Source: Streptomyces misionensis (GTDB lineage: Bacteria; Actinomycetota; Actinomycetes; Streptomycetales; Streptomycetaceae). Taken from it: a stretch of 64,000 nt of DNA. The position numbers and the translations under genes were made by a program. A model generated the notes under the pieces. That model saw only the letters and a list, made by a program, of their open reading frames with translations, ran no database searches and was not told the DNA's origin. This document shows positions 3,640-40,434 of this stretch, piece by piece. Every line of letters begins with the position of its first letter. Position 1 is the first letter of the stretch. Location of the stretch: positions 2,186,501-2,250,500 of the forward strand of contig NZ_FNTD01000004.1 of NCBI RefSeq assembly GCF_900104815.1, written 5' to 3'.

Positions 3640-5178
3640 TTGTCATCCGTTTCCGGTTCCGGGGCGAACCCGCTCCGTGACCCGGCCGACCGACGGCTCC
3701 CGCGCATCGCGGGGCCGTCGGGTCTGGTCATCTTCGGGGTCACGGGCGATCTGTCGCGCAAGAAACTGATGCCCGCGGTGTACGACCTCGCCAACCGGGG
3801 TCTGCTCCCGCCGGGCTTCTCGCTGGTGGGCTTCGCCCGCCGCGAGTGGGCGAACGAGGACTTCGCCCAGGAGGTCCACGACGCCGTCAAGGCGCACGCC
3901 CGTACGCCGTTCCGCGAGGAGGTCTGGCAGCAGCTCATCCAGGGGATGCGCTTCGTGCAGGGCACCTTCGACGACGACGAGGCGTTCGAGCGGCTGCGCT
4001 CCACCATCGAGGAGCTGGACAAGGCCCAGGGCACGGGCGGCAACTTCGCCTTCTACCTGTCGGTGCCGCCGCGTTCCTTCCCGGTGGTCATCCAGCAGCT
4101 GAAGAAGCACGGTCTGGCCGACCAGTCCGGCGGTTCCTGGCGGCGCGCGGTCATCGAGAAGCCGTTCGGGCACGACCTGAAGTCGGCCGAGGAACTGAAC
4201 AAGGTCGTGCACGAGGTGTTCGAGCCGGACCAGGTGTTCCGGATCGACCACTACCTCGGCAAGGAGACCGTCCAGAACATCCTGGCGCTGCGCTTCGCCA
4301 ACACCATGTTCGAGCCGATCTGGAACCGGTCCTTCGTGGACCACGTGCAGATCACCATGGCCGAGGACATCGGCATCGGCGGCCGCGCCGGCTACTACGA
4401 CGGCATCGGCGCCGCCCGTGACGTCATCCAGAACCACCTGCTCCAGCTGCTGGCACTGACCGCGATGGAGGAGCCCGCCTCCTTCGACGCGCAGGCGCTG
4501 GCCGCGGAGAAGACCAAGGTGCTCGGCGCCGTGCGGCTGCCGAAGGACCTGGGCAAGAACACCGTGCGCGGTCAGTACGCGGCGGGCTGGCAGGGCGGCG
4601 AGAAGGTCATCGGCTACCTCGAAGAGGACGGCATCGACCCGAAGTCGAAGACCGACACCTTCGCCGCGATCAAGGTGGGCATCGACAACCGCCGCTGGGC
4701 GGGCGTCCCCTTCTACCTGCGCACCGGCAAGCGTCTGGGCCGCCGGGTGACGGAGATCGCCGTCGTCTTCCAGCGGGCCCCGCACTCCCCCTTCGACCAC
4801 ACGGCGACGGAGGAGCTGGGGCAGAACGCGATCGTGATCCGCGTCCAGCCGGACGAGGGCATCACGGTCCGCTTCGGCTCCAAGGTGCCGGGCACCTCGA
4901 TGGAGATCCGGGACGTGTCGATGGACTTCGCCTACGGCGAGTCGTTCACCGAGTCCAGCCCGGAGGCGTACGAGCGGCTGATCCTGGACGTGCTGCTCGG
5001 CGACGCCAACCTCTTCCCGCGCACGGAGGAGGTCGAGCTGTCCTGGAAGATCCTCGACCCGATCGAGGAGTACTGGGACAAGCACGGCAGGCCCGCGCAG
5101 TACAAGTCGGGCACCTGGGGCCCCGCCGAGGCGGACGAGATGCTCGCACGAGACGGACGGAGCTGGCGCCGGCCATGA
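3640..5178 (+). CDS. zwf: Glucose-6-phosphate 1-dehydrogenase
   Basis: First oxidative step of the pentose phosphate pathway: glucose 6-phosphate to 6-phosphogluconolactone with production of NADPH. The 512-residue protein has the nucleotide motif FGVTGDLSRKK (residues 32-42) and the active-site signature RIDHYLGKE starting at R201. The start is a rare TTG at 3640; it is preferred because the tal stop region supplies GGAGG immediately before it, and no ATG or GTG is better placed. The stop overlaps the opcA start by four bases (ATGA). Confidence 0.96.
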   Translation: MSSVSGSGANPLRDPADRRLPRIAGPSGLVIFGVTGDLSRKKLMPAVYDLANRGLLPPGFSLVGFARREWANEDFAQEVHDAVKAHARTPFREEVWQQLIQGMRFVQGTFDDDEAFERLRSTIEELDKAQGTGGNFAFYLSVPPRSFPVVIQQLKKHGLADQSGGSWRRAVIEKPFGHDLKSAEELNKVVHEVFEPDQVFRIDHYLGKETVQNILALRFANTMFEPIWNRSFVDHVQITMAEDIGIGGRAGYYDGIGAARDVIQNHLLQLLALTAMEEPASFDAQALAAEKTKVLGAVRLPKDLGKNTVRGQYAAGWQGGEKVIGYLEEDGIDPKSKTDTFAAIKVGIDNRRWAGVPFYLRTGKRLGRRVTEIAVVFQRAPHSPFDHTATEELGQNAIVIRVQPDEGITVRFGSKVPGTSMEIRDVSMDFAYGESFTESSPEAYERLILDVLLGDANLFPRTEEVELSWKILDPIEEYWDKHGRPAQYKSGTWGPAEADEMLARDGRSWRRP

Positions 5179-30924: not shown

Positions 30925-31843
30925 GGACGAGCTTGCCCTGGAGGTGACCGGCGTCGAGCCGCCGGTGTGCCTCGGCGACGCGCTCGAACGGGAACGTCTC
31001 CTGCACATGGACCCGGAGTTTGCCCTGTTCGACGAGATCGACGAGACCCCGCAGGGCGACCGGATCGGGGTCGACCGCGATGCCGCTGAAGCGCATGCCG
31101 GCCGCCTCGTACCTGGCGGCGAGCGCGGTGTCCTCCTCGGCGACCGCCGTCACCAGGTGACCGCCCGGGCGGAGCACGTCGAGCGACCGTTCGACCGTGT
31201 CGCCGCCGATCGTGTCGAGCACGACGTCGACGTCGCGGACCGCCTCGGCGAAGTCGACCGCCGTGTGGTCGATGACCTCGTCGGCGCCCAACTCCTCGGC
31301 GAACTCACGCTTCCTCCCGCCCGCGGTCGCGATCACGTGCGCGCCCAGCGCCTTCGCGATCTGGATCGCCACATGGCCGACCCCGCCGCCACCGCCGTGC
31401 ACCAGGACGCGATCGCCCTCGGTCACGCCGCCGAGGTCGACGAGGCCCTGCCACGCCGTCAGCCCGACGACCGGCAGCGCCGACGCCTCGACGTGCGAGA
31501 GCGATGCCGGCTTGCGTGCCAGGTGCAGGGCCGGCGCCGACACGACCTCGGCGTACGCCCTCGCCGCCCGCGGGAACAGCGGCATTCCGAACACCTCGTC
31601 ACCCGGCCTCCACCGCCCCGTCGCCGGTGCGTCCTCGACCACGCCGCTGATGTCCCAGCCCAGAACGAACGGCGGCCGGCCGAGCAACGGGAACTCGCCG
31701 GCGCGCAGGCGCGCCTCCAGCGGGTTCAGCCCGATCGCCCTGACGCGGACGAGGACCTCGGTCGGGAGGGGGCGGGGTTCGGGCGCGTCCACGATGGTGA
31801 GGACCTCGGGACCGCCGAGCGTGTACTGGGTGACGACGCGCAT
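30914..31843 (-). CDS. NAD(P)H:quinone oxidoreductase-type zinc-less dehydrogenase
   Basis: Medium-chain dehydrogenase of the quinone-reductase branch, 309 residues. The catalytic fold starts with MRVVTQYTLGG; the Rossmann loop VHGGGGGVGHVAIQIAKALG lies near residues 149-168. Structural zinc cysteines are absent, as in quinone reductases. ATG at 31843 follows GAGGAGAG. It is divergent from an HxlR regulator carrying an N-terminal cysteine, an arrangement like qorA/qorR in Corynebacterium, so induction by quinones or thiol stress is likely. Confidence 0.9.
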   Translation of the reverse strand: MRVVTQYTLGGPEVLTIVDAPEPRPLPTEVLVRVRAIGLNPLEARLRAGEFPLLGRPPFVLGWDISGVVEDAPATGRWRPGDEVFGMPLFPRAARAYAEVVSAPALHLARKPASLSHVEASALPVVGLTAWQGLVDLGGVTEGDRVLVHGGGGGVGHVAIQIAKALGAHVIATAGGRKREFAEELGADEVIDHTAVDFAEAVRDVDVVLDTIGGDTVERSLDVLRPGGHLVTAVAEEDTALAARYEAAGMRFSGIAVDPDPVALRGLVDLVEQGKLRVHVQETFPFERVAEAHRRLDAGHLQGKLVLTV

Positions 31844-37337: not shown

Positions 37338-38438
37338 CTAAGGATTGATCGCCAGCTCCAGATAGGCCGCGAAGAGCACGAGGTGGACACCGCCCTGCAA
37401 GGGGGTGGCCCGCCCCGGAATCACAGTGAGGGAGGCGACCACCACCGTCAGCGCGAGCAGCAGCATGTGGACGGGTTCCAGGCCGAGGATGAGCGGTCCC
37501 GGCAGCCACAGCGAGGCGAGCGCCACCGCCGGTATGGTCAGGCCGATGCTGGCCATCGACGATCCGAGCGCGAGGTTCATGCTGGTCTGCACCCGGTCGC
37601 GGCGCGCGGCGCGCAGTGCGGCGATCGTCTCGGGAAGCAGCACGAGCAGGGCGATGATCACGCCGACGACGGCCTGGCGCAGGCCCACCGCCGCCACCCC
37701 CGCCTCGATCGCGGGCGACACGCCCTTGGCCAGGCCGACGACGCCGATCAGGGCCAGGCCGAGGAGGCCGAGGCTGATCAGCGCGGTGCGCTTGGACGGG
37801 GGGCTCGCGTGGTCCTCGGCGCTGATGACCTCACCCTGCCGGGTGATGGGCAGGAAGTAGTCCCGGTGGCGCACCGTCTGGGTGGTCACGAACAGGGCGT
37901 AGAGGATCAGCGAGGACAGCGCGGCGAACGTCAGTTGCAGGGAGGAGAACTGGGGTCCGGGCTTGCTGGTGGTGAAGGTGGGCAGCACCAGGCTCAGCGT
38001 GGCCAGGGTCGCCACCGTCGCCAGGGCGGCGCCGGTGCCCTCGGGATTGAAGACCGCCGTGCCGTGCCGCAGCGAGCCGACGAGCAGGCAGATGCCGACG
38101 ATGCCGTTGCAGGTGATCATCACCGCGGCGAAGACGGTGTCCCTGGCCAGGGTGGAACTCTTGTCGCCGCCGTCGGCCATCAGTGTGACGATGAGGGCCA
38201 CTTCGATGACGGTGACGGCGATGGCTAGCACCAGGGAGCCGAAGGGTTCGCCGATCCGGTGGGCGACCACCTCCGCGTGGTGCACCGCCGCGAGGACGGC
38301 CCCGGCGAGCACGACCGTCACCAGGGCGATGACCGGGGCGGGCATGGCCCGGTGCCACGTGAGGACCAGCAGGACGATCGCGATCACCGGCACGGGGATG
38401 GTCCATCGCCGGGCGAGTGATCTCAGCCAACTGATCAT
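37338..38438 (-). CDS. Calcium/proton antiporter (ChaA/CAX-like)
   Basis: Ca2+/cation antiporter superfamily, 366 residues with about eleven membrane segments. The two alpha repeats are recognisable: SLVLAIAVTVIEVALIVTLM in the first half and LLVLLPETIAALRAARRDRVQTSMNLALGSS in the second, each with the conserved acidic residue. ATG at 38438 starts before the first helix; the ribosome site is weak. It lies downstream of terC on the same strand, separated by a hairpin. Confidence 0.9.
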   Translation of the reverse strand: MISWLRSLARRWTIPVPVIAIVLLVLTWHRAMPAPVIALVTVVLAGAVLAAVHHAEVVAHRIGEPFGSLVLAIAVTVIEVALIVTLMADGGDKSSTLARDTVFAAVMITCNGIVGICLLVGSLRHGTAVFNPEGTGAALATVATLATLSLVLPTFTTSKPGPQFSSLQLTFAALSSLILYALFVTTQTVRHRDYFLPITRQGEVISAEDHASPPSKRTALISLGLLGLALIGVVGLAKGVSPAIEAGVAAVGLRQAVVGVIIALLVLLPETIAALRAARRDRVQTSMNLALGSSMASIGLTIPAVALASLWLPGPLILGLEPVHMLLLALTVVVASLTVIPGRATPLQGGVHLVLFAAYLELAINP

Positions 38439-38507
38439 GCCGCGATCGTCGCAGACGGCTCCATGATTCGCATTCCGTTCCTTCTGGATGCTTCCGTACC
38501 TTTCCCG

Positions 38508-38541
38508 GCGGGGGCCCGGCATTGTCTCGGCCGGCCCCCGC
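38508..38541 (-). terminator. Terminator after terC
   Basis: GCGGGGGCC (38508-38516) and GGCCCCCGC (38533-38541) form a 9-bp stem, followed on the minus strand by GGGAAAGG. Confidence 0.65.
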
Positions 38542-38575
38542 GTGTTCGTTCCGGATCTCGTGCGCGGCGCCGCGG

Positions 38576-39577
38576 TCAGGCGTCCACGGCCTCCTTCCGC
38601 TCGCCCTCGGCGTCCGCGCCGGCCTCCGCGGCGGTCTGCTTCCGGGAGGCCATGAGGCTGGTGAACGTGGTGACGGCCAGGACGGCGCAGATCACCCCGA
38701 GCGACACCGGGATGCTGATCTGGGGAACCGGGACACCCGACTCGTGCAGCGCGTGGAGCACCAGCTTCACGCCGATGAAGCCGAGGATGACGGACAGGCC
38801 GTAGGAGAGGTGGACCAGCTTCTTCAGCAGGCCGCCGAGGAGGAAGTACAGCTGGCGCAGGCCCATCAGCGCGAAGGCGTTGGCGGTGAAGACGATGTAC
38901 GGGTCCTGGGTCAGGCCGAAGATCGCGGGGATCGAGTCCAGGGCGAACAGGACGTCCGTGGTGCCGATGGCGAGCATCACGACCAGCATCGGGGTCATGA
39001 TCCGCTTGCCGTTCTGCCGGACCCACAGCTTGGTGCCGTGGTAGCGGTCGGCCACGCCGAACCTGCGCTCCGCGGCCTTCAGCAGCCTGTTCTCCTCGAA
39101 CTCCTCCTCGTCCGCGTTGTCGGCGCGGGCCTCCTGGACGAGCTTCCAGGCGGTCCACATCAGGAAGGCGCCGAAGAGGAAGAACACCCAGGAGAAGCTG
39201 GTGACGATCGCGGCTCCGGCCGCGATGAACACGGCGCGCAGCACCAGGGCTATCAGGACGCCGATGAGCAGCACGCGCCGCTGGTACAGGGCGGGCACCG
39301 CGAACTTCGTCATGATCAGGACGAAGACGAAGAGGTTGTCGACGCTGAGCGATTTCTCGGTGATGTAGCCCGCGAAGAACTCGCCGGCCGGGCGCCCGCC
39401 GCCGAAGACGAGGAGACCGGCACCGAAGAGTGCGGCCAGGGCGATCCAGACGACGGTCCAGACACCGGCTTCTTTGATCGACACCTCATGGGGCTTTCGC
39501 CCGACGAGGAAGTCGATTCCGATCAGGGCGGCCAGACCCAGGACGGTCAGGACCCACAGGGTCGTGGAGACTTCCAC
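38576..39577 (-). CDS. terC: TerC-family membrane protein (probable manganese exporter)
   Basis: TerC/Alx family, 333 residues with about nine helices. Family TerC proteins in Bacillus and E. coli Alx take part in Mn2+ export. Acidic membrane motifs are SLSVDNLFVFVLIM and TTDVLFALDSIPAIFGLT. I place the start at GTG 39577: GGAGG lies five bases upstream, and the upstream ATG at 39592 would put that site inside the gene. The leader folds like a yybP-ykoY Mn2+ riboswitch whose stem can hide this ribosome site. The last 25 residues are charged. Confidence 0.9.
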   Translation of the reverse strand: MEVSTTLWVLTVLGLAALIGIDFLVGRKPHEVSIKEAGVWTVVWIALAALFGAGLLVFGGGRPAGEFFAGYITEKSLSVDNLFVFVLIMTKFAVPALYQRRVLLIGVLIALVLRAVFIAAGAAIVTSFSWVFFLFGAFLMWTAWKLVQEARADNADEEEFEENRLLKAAERRFGVADRYHGTKLWVRQNGKRIMTPMLVVMLAIGTTDVLFALDSIPAIFGLTQDPYIVFTANAFALMGLRQLYFLLGGLLKKLVHLSYGLSVILGFIGVKLVLHALHESGVPVPQISIPVSLGVICAVLAVTTFTSLMASRKQTAAEAGADAEGERKEAVDA

Positions 39578-39626
39578 GGCAACCTCCGGCATGTCGAGAT
39601 GGCAAGCACATATGCGTTGTCACTGC

Positions 39627-39720
39627 CGGAGGTCTCTTCCACCCGCGCGGGGCCGACGCCCCGGGACCGGAAACGGTCCGTACTGACGGGTGCGCCGCAG
39701 TCAGGGAGTACTCCCCTCCG
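39627..39720 (-). ncRNA. Candidate yybP-ykoY (Mn2+) riboswitch upstream of terC
   Basis: In minus-strand RNA the closing stem P1 is CGGAGG (39720-39715) with CCUCCG (39632-39627). GGAGUA follows the 5' arm, CGUCAGUACG lies in the middle, and AGAGACC precedes the 3' arm; these are the conserved pieces of yybP-ykoY. Internal stems are CUGAC/GUCAG, GGACCG/CGGUCC and GGGGC/GCCCC. The P1 3' strand CCUCCGG is complementary to the terC ribosome site CCGGAGG (39589-39583), so metal-stabilised P1 would expose the site. Confidence 0.75.
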
Positions 39721-39728
39721 TGCGGAAG

Positions 39729-39758
39729 ACAGTACCCCAATCACCAAGCATTGGTAAA
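39729..39758 (-). promoter_or_regulatory. Putative terC promoter
   Basis: -35 TTTACC (39758-39753), 18 bases, -10 TACTGT (39734-39729). The transcript would begin near 39722, immediately before the riboswitch stem. Confidence 0.55.
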
Positions 39759-39825
39759 GAGAAAGGCAAAGGTAAGTTCAAATCGCCTGATCAAGACAGC
39801 TTTACTTTCTCTTGACGTCGCGCTG
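39740..39825. other. AT-rich island between terC and terD
   Basis: About 85 bases with many A/T runs, unlike the rest of the window. It holds a 9-bp inverted repeat AAGAGAAAG (39757-39765) and CTTTCTCTT (39805-39813) 39 bases apart. It may combine a terD terminator and a terC regulatory site. Confidence 0.5.
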
Positions 39826-39855
39826 TCGTCCGCGCCCCGCCCCTGCGTACCGGGG

Positions 39856-40434
39856 TTACAGATGCGGCAGGATCGCCGGCATCAGGTCCTGGAAGGTGCG
39901 CCCGTTGGCGGAGGTGCCGAGGGCGGTCATCGTCCAGCCCGAGCCGACCCGGTGCACCTTGGCCATGATCTGCGCGGTGTACTCGCCGCCGCCCGCGAGC
40001 GTGTAGCGGGCGAGTTCCTGGCCGTTGCTCTCGTCCACCAGACGGCAGAAAGCATTCTGCACCTCCTGGAAGGTCTGGCCGGTGAAGGAGTTCACGGTGA
40101 AGACGATCTGGTCGATGTGGACCGGGACGCGCTCCAGGTCCACGAGGATCGCCTCGTCGTCACCGCCCTGGCCGGCGCCGCCCACCAGGTTGTCGCCGGT
40201 GTGGCGCACCGAGCCGTCGTCGCTCACCAGGTGCCGGAAGAAGACGACGTCGACCGGCTGCTTCTCGGCGAAGAGCACCGCCGAGGCGTCCAGGTCGATC
40301 TCCTTGGTGCGCGAGCCGAACAGGCCGCGTCGCTTCGCCGCCTGCCAGCCCAGGCCCATGCGGACCGCGGAGAGGGTGCCCCCGTCGTTCTTCTCCAGGC
40401 TGATGGCCTGACCCTTGCTCAAGTTGACGGACAC
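39856..40434 (-). CDS. TerD-family (calcium-binding stress) protein
   Basis: TerD/vWA-associated stress protein of 192 residues. It begins VNLSKGQAISLEK as in the family, and acidic stretches such as VSDDGSVRHTGDNLVGGAGQGGDDE form the double Ca2+ site typical of TerD. Ter proteins are linked to tellurite and metal-stress responses and to differentiation in Streptomyces. GTG at 40434 follows GAGAGGGGA. A possible -10 TAGGGT lies at 40498-40493. Lying next to terC, also on the minus strand, it points to a small metal-stress locus. Confidence 0.93.
   Translation of the reverse strand: MSVNLSKGQAISLEKNDGGTLSAVRMGLGWQAAKRRGLFGSRTKEIDLDASAVLFAEKQPVDVVFFRHLVSDDGSVRHTGDNLVGGAGQGGDDEAILVDLERVPVHIDQIVFTVNSFTGQTFQEVQNAFCRLVDESNGQELARYTLAGGGEYTAQIMAKVHRVGSGWTMTALGTSANGRTFQDLMPAILPHL

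Follow-up and report, generated by a model that had tools for sequence, protein, structure and literature searches.

A predicted yybP-ykoY manganese riboswitch in the terC leader of Streptomyces

The leader of terC in the window (the whole 64,000-nucleotide stretch of Streptomyces misionensis DNA analysed here) is very probably a Mn2+ riboswitch of the yybP-ykoY class, predicted from its sequence to act as a translational on-switch. Transcription would begin at or next to the P1 helix. At high Mn2+, the ion would bridge L1 (GGAGUA) and L3 (UCAGUAC) and hold P1 closed, which would keep the CCUCCGG strand within the aptamer and leave the ribosome site free. At low Mn2+, the same strand would pair with UGCCGGAGG and block the ribosome. 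The decision would probably fall during transcription, since synthesis of the aptamer ends about 35 nt ahead of the ribosome site. The analysis itself shows the sequence, a conserved and covarying structure, homology to RF00080 sites and to the Escherichia coli alx leader, and complementarity specific to the locus; from these we infer Mn2+ as the ligand, the direction of the switch and the co-transcriptional choice.

The assignment to the yybP-ykoY class made in the initial annotation is supported by two models that recognise the leader, known loci of the Rfam family RF00080 and the Escherichia coli alx leader, by covariation across the phylum and by gene context. Model R1 was built only from terC leaders of the same genus (alignment A2), and model R2 from 58 actinobacterial matches, none of them from this genus. 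Both find sequence-structure homology to accepted RF00080 members.

Locus and leader elements

The minus-strand gene order is a TerD-domain gene (Pfam PF02342, 39856-40434), the leader, terC and a Na_Ca_ex antiporter gene. The antiporter gene (PF01699, 37338-38438, minus strand) lies directly 3' of terC, and the two are possibly co-transcribed. This context is one of Mn2+ homeostasis, with TerC (PF03741) here and TerC, P-type ATPase, Na_Ca_ex and GDT1 genes in relatives. The term exporter, when applied to the terC product, denotes one of two proposed roles of TerC. From promoter to coding sequence, the elements are as follows.

39753..39758, minus strand: -35-like hexamer TTTACC with an 18-nt spacer, read by eye; weak match to TTGACA
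39729..39734, minus strand: putative -10 element TACTGT, 8 nt before P1
39715..39720, minus strand: P1 5' strand CGGAGG, pairing with CCUCCG at 39632-39627
39709..39714, minus strand: L1, GGAGUA, found in 56 of 58 rows of alignment A3, the sole set whose selection did not rest on an exact motif containing L1
39705..39708, minus strand: P1.2 5' strand CUCC, pairing with 39637-39640 (UCC/GGA plus a C.A mismatch)
39693..39697, minus strand: P3.1 5' strand CGGCG, pairing with CGUCG at 39654-39658
39680..39686, minus strand: L3, UCAGUAC; A39684 aligns with the Mn2+-binding A41 of Lactococcus lactis
39664..39679, minus strand: P3.2 hairpin GGACCG-UUUC-CGGUCC, covarying
39641..39653, minus strand: P4, GCCC/GGGU with a variable tip, covarying; its length differs between species
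39627..39636, minus strand: GAGACC and P1 3' strand CCUCCG, overlapping in CC; invariant in A2, partly by construction, as part of this motif was used to select A2
39624..39632, minus strand: anti-ribosome-site strand CCUCCGGCA, common to the P1 3' strand and subject of the swap test across genera
39583..39591, minus strand: UGCCGGAGG, which contains the ribosome site and lies 5 nt before the GTG start
38576..39577, minus strand: terC coding sequence, GTG start at 39577-39575; Pfam PF03741 TerC, 175.1 bits, E=1.5e-51

All the aptamer pieces originally proposed (P1, GGAGUA, CGUCAGUACG and AGAGACC) are present on the minus strand in their assigned places, with CGUCAGUACG at 39688-39679 spanning the L3 region and AGAGACC at 39637-39631. 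The proposed complementarity between the P1 3' strand CCUCCGG (39632-39626) and CCGGAGG (39589-39583) is also exact and extends to 9 bp in full, CCUCCGGCA with UGCCGGAGG.

A P2 helix is not visible in the window, where 7 nt separate P1.2 from P3.1, and the leader would form a three-way junction in place of the four-way junction with P2 of the crystal structures. In the parsed leaders this spacing is approximately 4-14 nt, which mostly leaves no room for a stable P2. P2 is not treated as required for membership, because the alignment of E. coli alx is also without it.

Conservation, covariation and promoter

Among 90 upstream regions of terC genes in the genus, 80 carry both end motifs; the 90 comprise 30 loci returned and 60 picked from further listed places, and include a few second or distant terC copies. 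The other ten are without the motif, and R1 run without filters matches none of them. Since the motif used to select the 80 leaders and A2 contains most of L1 and GAGACC, these bases are not countable there; L3 was not part of the motif that selected the 80 leaders. A2 holds 42 of 75 distinct cores, the 33 omitted being mostly long-P4 or similar, plus the degenerate locus L035. It was aligned by MAFFT and folded by RNAalifold without a guide, with P1.2 added by hand.

In this alignment, RNAalifold recovered P1, P3.1 with a CCCG/CGGG extension, P3.2 and P4 unaided, and placed a tight GGA/UCC hairpin where P1.2 was expected. Over 31 pairs in the 42 leaders, 93.8% of cells are paired and 61 show two-sided changes, compared with 21 in shuffles and at most 17 in a slid-partner control.

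R1 at E<=0.001 matched 59 of 396 genomes of the phylum (38 of 236 genera), 11 of the 59 coming from the window's genus, itself included. At the same threshold it matched 184 of 197 genomes of the order, with no R1 match in the remaining 13. A3 consists of the 58 matches from other genera, 56 of them distinct; two-sided changes occur at 25 of its 31 pairs, with 314 such cells compared with 97 shuffled and 93.6% paired. An exact pattern (L1 plus part of L3) gave at least 118 stretches; R1 was run on 80 of them, among the matches listed, and returned 81 matches in named contigs (A4), with covariation support similar to that of A3, both sets having been fitted to the model and leaning towards it. 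Contig names in A4 include Nonomuraea, Cellulomonas, Microbispora, Nocardiopsis and Microbacterium.

The helices P1, P1.2, P3.1, P3.2 and P4 all covary. P1 is almost without variation in the genus and therefore gives no covariation evidence there; among the 56 distinct outside sequences, two-sided changes occur at four of its six pairs. The outer pair of P1.2 is mostly C.A in the genus and unpaired in 32 of 42 rows, and across the phylum it covaries (UA 32, CG 15, GC 3, other 6). For P3.1, the central pair alternates between G-C, A-U and G-U within the genus, and all five pairs change on both sides outside it.

The same RNA is also carried by three records titled Acidobacteria (two MAGs) and Planococcus (L198, L213 and L244), which reflect either a spread beyond Actinomycetota or mislabelled records. 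Separately, a Blastococcus contig (L234) has two aptamers 1.3 kb apart, at 2896-2999 and 4288-4395.

A promoter had been placed about eight bases before P1, and TACTGT does stand there. The pattern TANNNT is kept 7-9 nt before P1 in all 80 motif-bearing genus leaders (mononucleotide shuffles: mean 4.8, maximum 11). Given this constant distance, transcription most likely starts at or next to P1. A generic sigma-70 consensus scan of 38400-39900 reported no promoter.

Other features of the upstream region include the words GTAAAG/CTTTAC and CCAAG/CTTGG, which are repeated upstream of the terC -10 element in many same-genus leaders (39735-39845 in the window and the same stretch in L010-L020) and may form an operator for a regulator. 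In another locus, L075, a promoter-like stretch and the ribosome site are kept, the aptamer is absent and R1 finds no match; by its sequence, this locus looks like a natural aptamer deletion.

Switch mechanism

Because CCUCC pairs with almost any ribosome site, the switch strand was assessed by comparing each locus's own duplex with swapped ones. The per-locus test used 127 of the 139 matches outside the genus, short flanks and duplicates having been dropped, and the per-genus test used 34, one per genus. Across the 127 loci, the own duplex averaged -14.2 against -11.7 (sd 0.18) when permuted, and none of 5000 permutations was as low. Across the 34 genera, the corresponding means were -13.5 and -11.1 (sd 0.37) kcal/mol, with 0 of 10000 swaps as low, in a test that holds one locus per genus and in which kinship above the genus remains. 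The result was again 0 of 10000 when strands were swapped only with others sharing the same first four letters.

At individual loci, the own strand ranked in the best 10% at 57 of 127 and in the best 5% at 37; these modest ranks arise in part because many strands are alike. At 95 of the 127, at least 6 bp cover a ribosome-site-like word that has a start codon no more than 18 nt away, and at 17 the pairing is only 4-5 bp. Changes in the P1 3' strand are tracked by the ribosome site, as in CCUUCGG with CCGAAGG (L128), CCUCGAACA with UGUUCGAGG (L119) and CCUCCACG with CGUGGAGG (L169).

No terminator-like site was found at 38400-39900, and an intrinsic terminator was accordingly dropped as the output. 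Together with the locus-specific complementarity, this supports the translational on-switch logic first proposed. Nearest-neighbour folding without ligand gave -77.7 kcal/mol for the OFF state and -54.7 for the ON state. Equilibrium switching by secondary structure alone is unsupported, as the OFF state is favoured; in this folding model, the gap is too large to allow switching at equilibrium unless tertiary contacts and the order of folding also contribute. A co-transcriptional decision is therefore more likely than equilibrium.

The same gap would suit a Mn2+ aptamer whose output is mainly transcriptional, with Rho or a pause ending transcription when the ribosome site is closed and translation only following, since it suggests a decision made during transcription. 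A precedent exists in E. coli mntP, reported in the available text of PMC11647493 to be under Rho and a Mn-dependent translational riboswitch. Such an output is unlikely here: the pairing between switch strand and ribosome site is locus-specific, and 38400-39900 holds no terminator-like site, although Rho would be compatible with that.

Metal site, L3 types and regulated genes

For the predicted translational on-switch, the candidate metal site can be compared with that of L. lactis, where Mn2+ is bound by G9, U39, C40, A41, U44 and C45 (PMC9190785, available text). L3 reads UCA41AUUC in L. lactis and ACA48UACU in Xanthomonas oryzae (PMC6754395, available text). Compared with the L. lactis site as described there, UCAGUAC in the window agrees at U39, C40, A41 and C45 and has A in place of U44. 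L3 contains UCA in 79 of the 80 genus leaders, the window's included, so that the Mn2+-sensing adenosine is present in these 79; the remaining leader, L035, has UCG. In L1, GGAGUA in the window would supply the docking adenosine.

The leader of L035 (2552-2654, minus strand) combines UCG in L3 with GGAGCA in L1, is otherwise kept in structure and scores 74.6 bits with R1. It could represent an altered metal preference or decay.

TerC is a classic target of yybP-ykoY riboswitches, whose known targets also include UPF0016 and ATPase genes, and L. lactis yoaB is a P-type ATPase. Among the 139 matches outside the genus, the genes 3' of the RNA (identified by tblastn) encode TerC in 102 cases and a P-type ATPase in 19, two of whose places are counted twice (L113/L177 and L127/L178). 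The rest comprise two M50-like, two HtpX-like, two of a kind with no Pfam family, one Na_Ca_ex, one PGPGW and ten unassigned. The unusual targets are thus M50 proteases, HtpX-type M48 proteases, a PGPGW membrane protein and a Pfam-less protein (L110, with L118 alike), at loci L143, L169, L197, L215, L167, L110 and L118. Elsewhere, the available texts name Vibrio parahaemolyticus mneA and terC (PMC13274385) and Bacillus subtilis meeY (PMC10550928) as targets of yybP-ykoY riboswitches, and a title in the reference list of PMC13274385 refers to a Streptococcus Mn2+/Ca2+ ATPase preceded by a Mn-sensing riboswitch.

A homologous fold could also respond mainly to another signal, either a different divalent metal or pH. 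The alx leader is under pH control, and the natural variant L035 has UCG for UCA. A title cited in PMC10550928 (available text) ties E. coli Alx to alkaline pH. This reading is nonetheless decidedly unlikely for the terC leader, as the site bases U39, C40, A41 and C45 (PMC9190785, available text) are kept in 79 of 80 leaders, A41 differing in L035, and the genes under its control are largely the same as the targets of known Mn2+ riboswitches.

L3 falls into two types that accompany different genes. By a strict pattern, UCA-type L3 occurs at 94 of 102 TerC loci and 16 of 19 P-type ATPase loci, and the remaining eight and three rows show UCA by eye; 67 TerC and 6 ATPase loci come from a pattern demanding UCAU, leaving 35 TerC and 13 ATPase loci unforced. 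Leaders before GDT1/UPF0016 genes in Streptomyces and its order, found by both R1 and R2, have the same layout without a visible P2. They differ in L3: all 17 GDT1-assigned loci, drawn from the genus and its order, have ACAYACU, the type of X. oryzae and mntP. These leaders (L002, L003, L005-L008, L298, L299 and L301-L309) belong to at least two paralogue kinds.

The same split is seen in E. coli, with UCAUUAC in alx and ACAUACU in mntP, and in the crystallised aptamers of yoaB and yebN, as far as these are described in the available sources. Two R2 matches occur in 16 of 25 same-genus genomes, a GDT1-type site besides the terC one was seen in 13 of the 25, and 11 of 12 further fetched places were assigned to GDT1. 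The window's own genome has only the terC riboswitch; a second one elsewhere was rejected, as R2 lists the terC leader alone at E<=10.

Tentatively, and with sampling outside Actinomycetota amounting to a handful of cases, two L3 lineages may follow the regulated gene across phyla, the UCA-type, P2-less actinobacterial branch being largely unseen by Rfam. On this same tentative reading, the UCA type would unite yoaB, alx and the actinobacterial terC and P-type ATPase leaders, and the ACAUACU type would unite yebN, mntP and Streptomyces GDT1.

Relationship to known riboswitches

The initial annotation had proposed a covariance-model search with the Rfam yybP-ykoY family, and this check failed, which under the annotation's own refuting condition would tell against the proposal. 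RF00080 gave no match at its gathering score (45 bits) over the whole window, or at E<=10 over 39500-39860. At E<=10 it likewise missed 20 additional terC upstream regions, of which 18 bear the motif, and at E<=1 it missed 19 related loci belonging to other families. Of the two E. coli leaders put through this search, mntP scored 41.6 bits, below the 45-bit bar, and alx was unlisted at E<=0.1. Mn-sensing riboswitches have been reported before both genes (PMC9603457, available text). As these reported members miss the same bar, it is unsound as a test of membership, and the Rfam score was dropped as a judge.

By comparison, R1 recovered all eight RF00080 loci of relatives at 43-61 bits (six precede GDT1-type genes, one a Na_Ca_ex-like gene, and one is unassigned). 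It gave 39.1 bits to the leader of E. coli alx, with the next off-target match at 12 bits, and 14 bits (E 0.39) to mntP. R2 gave 81.5 bits for the window's terC leader, 52.5 for alx and 24.8 for mntP. Its best other match in the 64-kb window reached 22 bits (E 0.004) at 31199-31302; this was rejected as a second riboswitch, as it lies within a 365-aa ORF that reads by eye as an alcohol dehydrogenase-like enzyme. Since an ORF-internal stretch attains 22 bits, the 24.8 bits of mntP alone prove little. On these scores, the link to alx is firm and that to mntP weak.

Both models align alx from the first to the last model position. The alx leader has CGUCAUUACG in L3, shows no P2 in the alignment, as in the terC leader, and precedes a TerC family gene annotated as a Mn2+ exporter. 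It differs from the terC leader in its 48% GC over the match and in its P3 and P4 tips. That the leader holds just a ribosome-site hairpin or a protein site, resembling the aptamer by chance in GC-rich DNA, is hardly credible: the silence of RF00080 would fit it, but covariation beyond shuffled and slid controls and the cross-detection of alx at such a GC content strongly disfavour it.

The yybP-ykoY reading can also be set against other members of the class. With the L. lactis yoaB aptamer, compared by its described helix layout, the terC leader has P1, L1, P1.2, P3.1, a UCA-type L3, P3.2 and P4 in common. The two differ in the junction, three-way with no visible P2 in place of four-way, and in the output, which is predicted to be translational instead of transcriptional. 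The terC leader is also unreported by the Rfam model. Corynebacterium glutamicum terC (cg2157) likewise has an actinobacterial terC leader, likened here by description; according to the available text of PMC3890552, it was listed as RF00080 at 49.13 bits in an earlier Rfam, and its 5' UTR was seen by RNA-seq.

Novelty and significance

The riboswitch class and, from the available text of PMC3890552, the RF00080 listing of C. glutamicum terC are already known. Among the literature matches listed, with subscription papers and supplements outside the scope, no title or abstract start names a Mn2+ riboswitch at Streptomyces terC. The Streptomyces lividans TK24 reannotation (PMC8079986) has a table of Rfam cis elements, 22 by its text, and the available part of its main text mentions no TerC, tellurium, Mn2+, manganese, yybP or RF00080. 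Similarly, the available main texts of three Streptomyces transcriptome papers (PMC8780764, PMC8269248 and PMC6742748) mention neither terC nor manganese. Counting against novelty, the available text of PMC8164766 states that studies of this kind on Corynebacterium and Streptomyces had identified yybP-ykoY, with the gene unnamed. As far as these searches show, what is new is the recognition of the riboswitch at Streptomyces terC and the extent to which the current Rfam model misses it.

In an antibiotic-producing genus, terC is placed under a predicted Mn2+ sensor that Rfam-based annotation has overlooked, and this points to a blind spot of the RF00080 model in Actinomycetota. The two L3 types with their different partner genes also form a testable pair. 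If the two-lineage reading is true, many Streptomyces genomes would carry one riboswitch of each L3 type, which would give two Mn2+ set points per cell.
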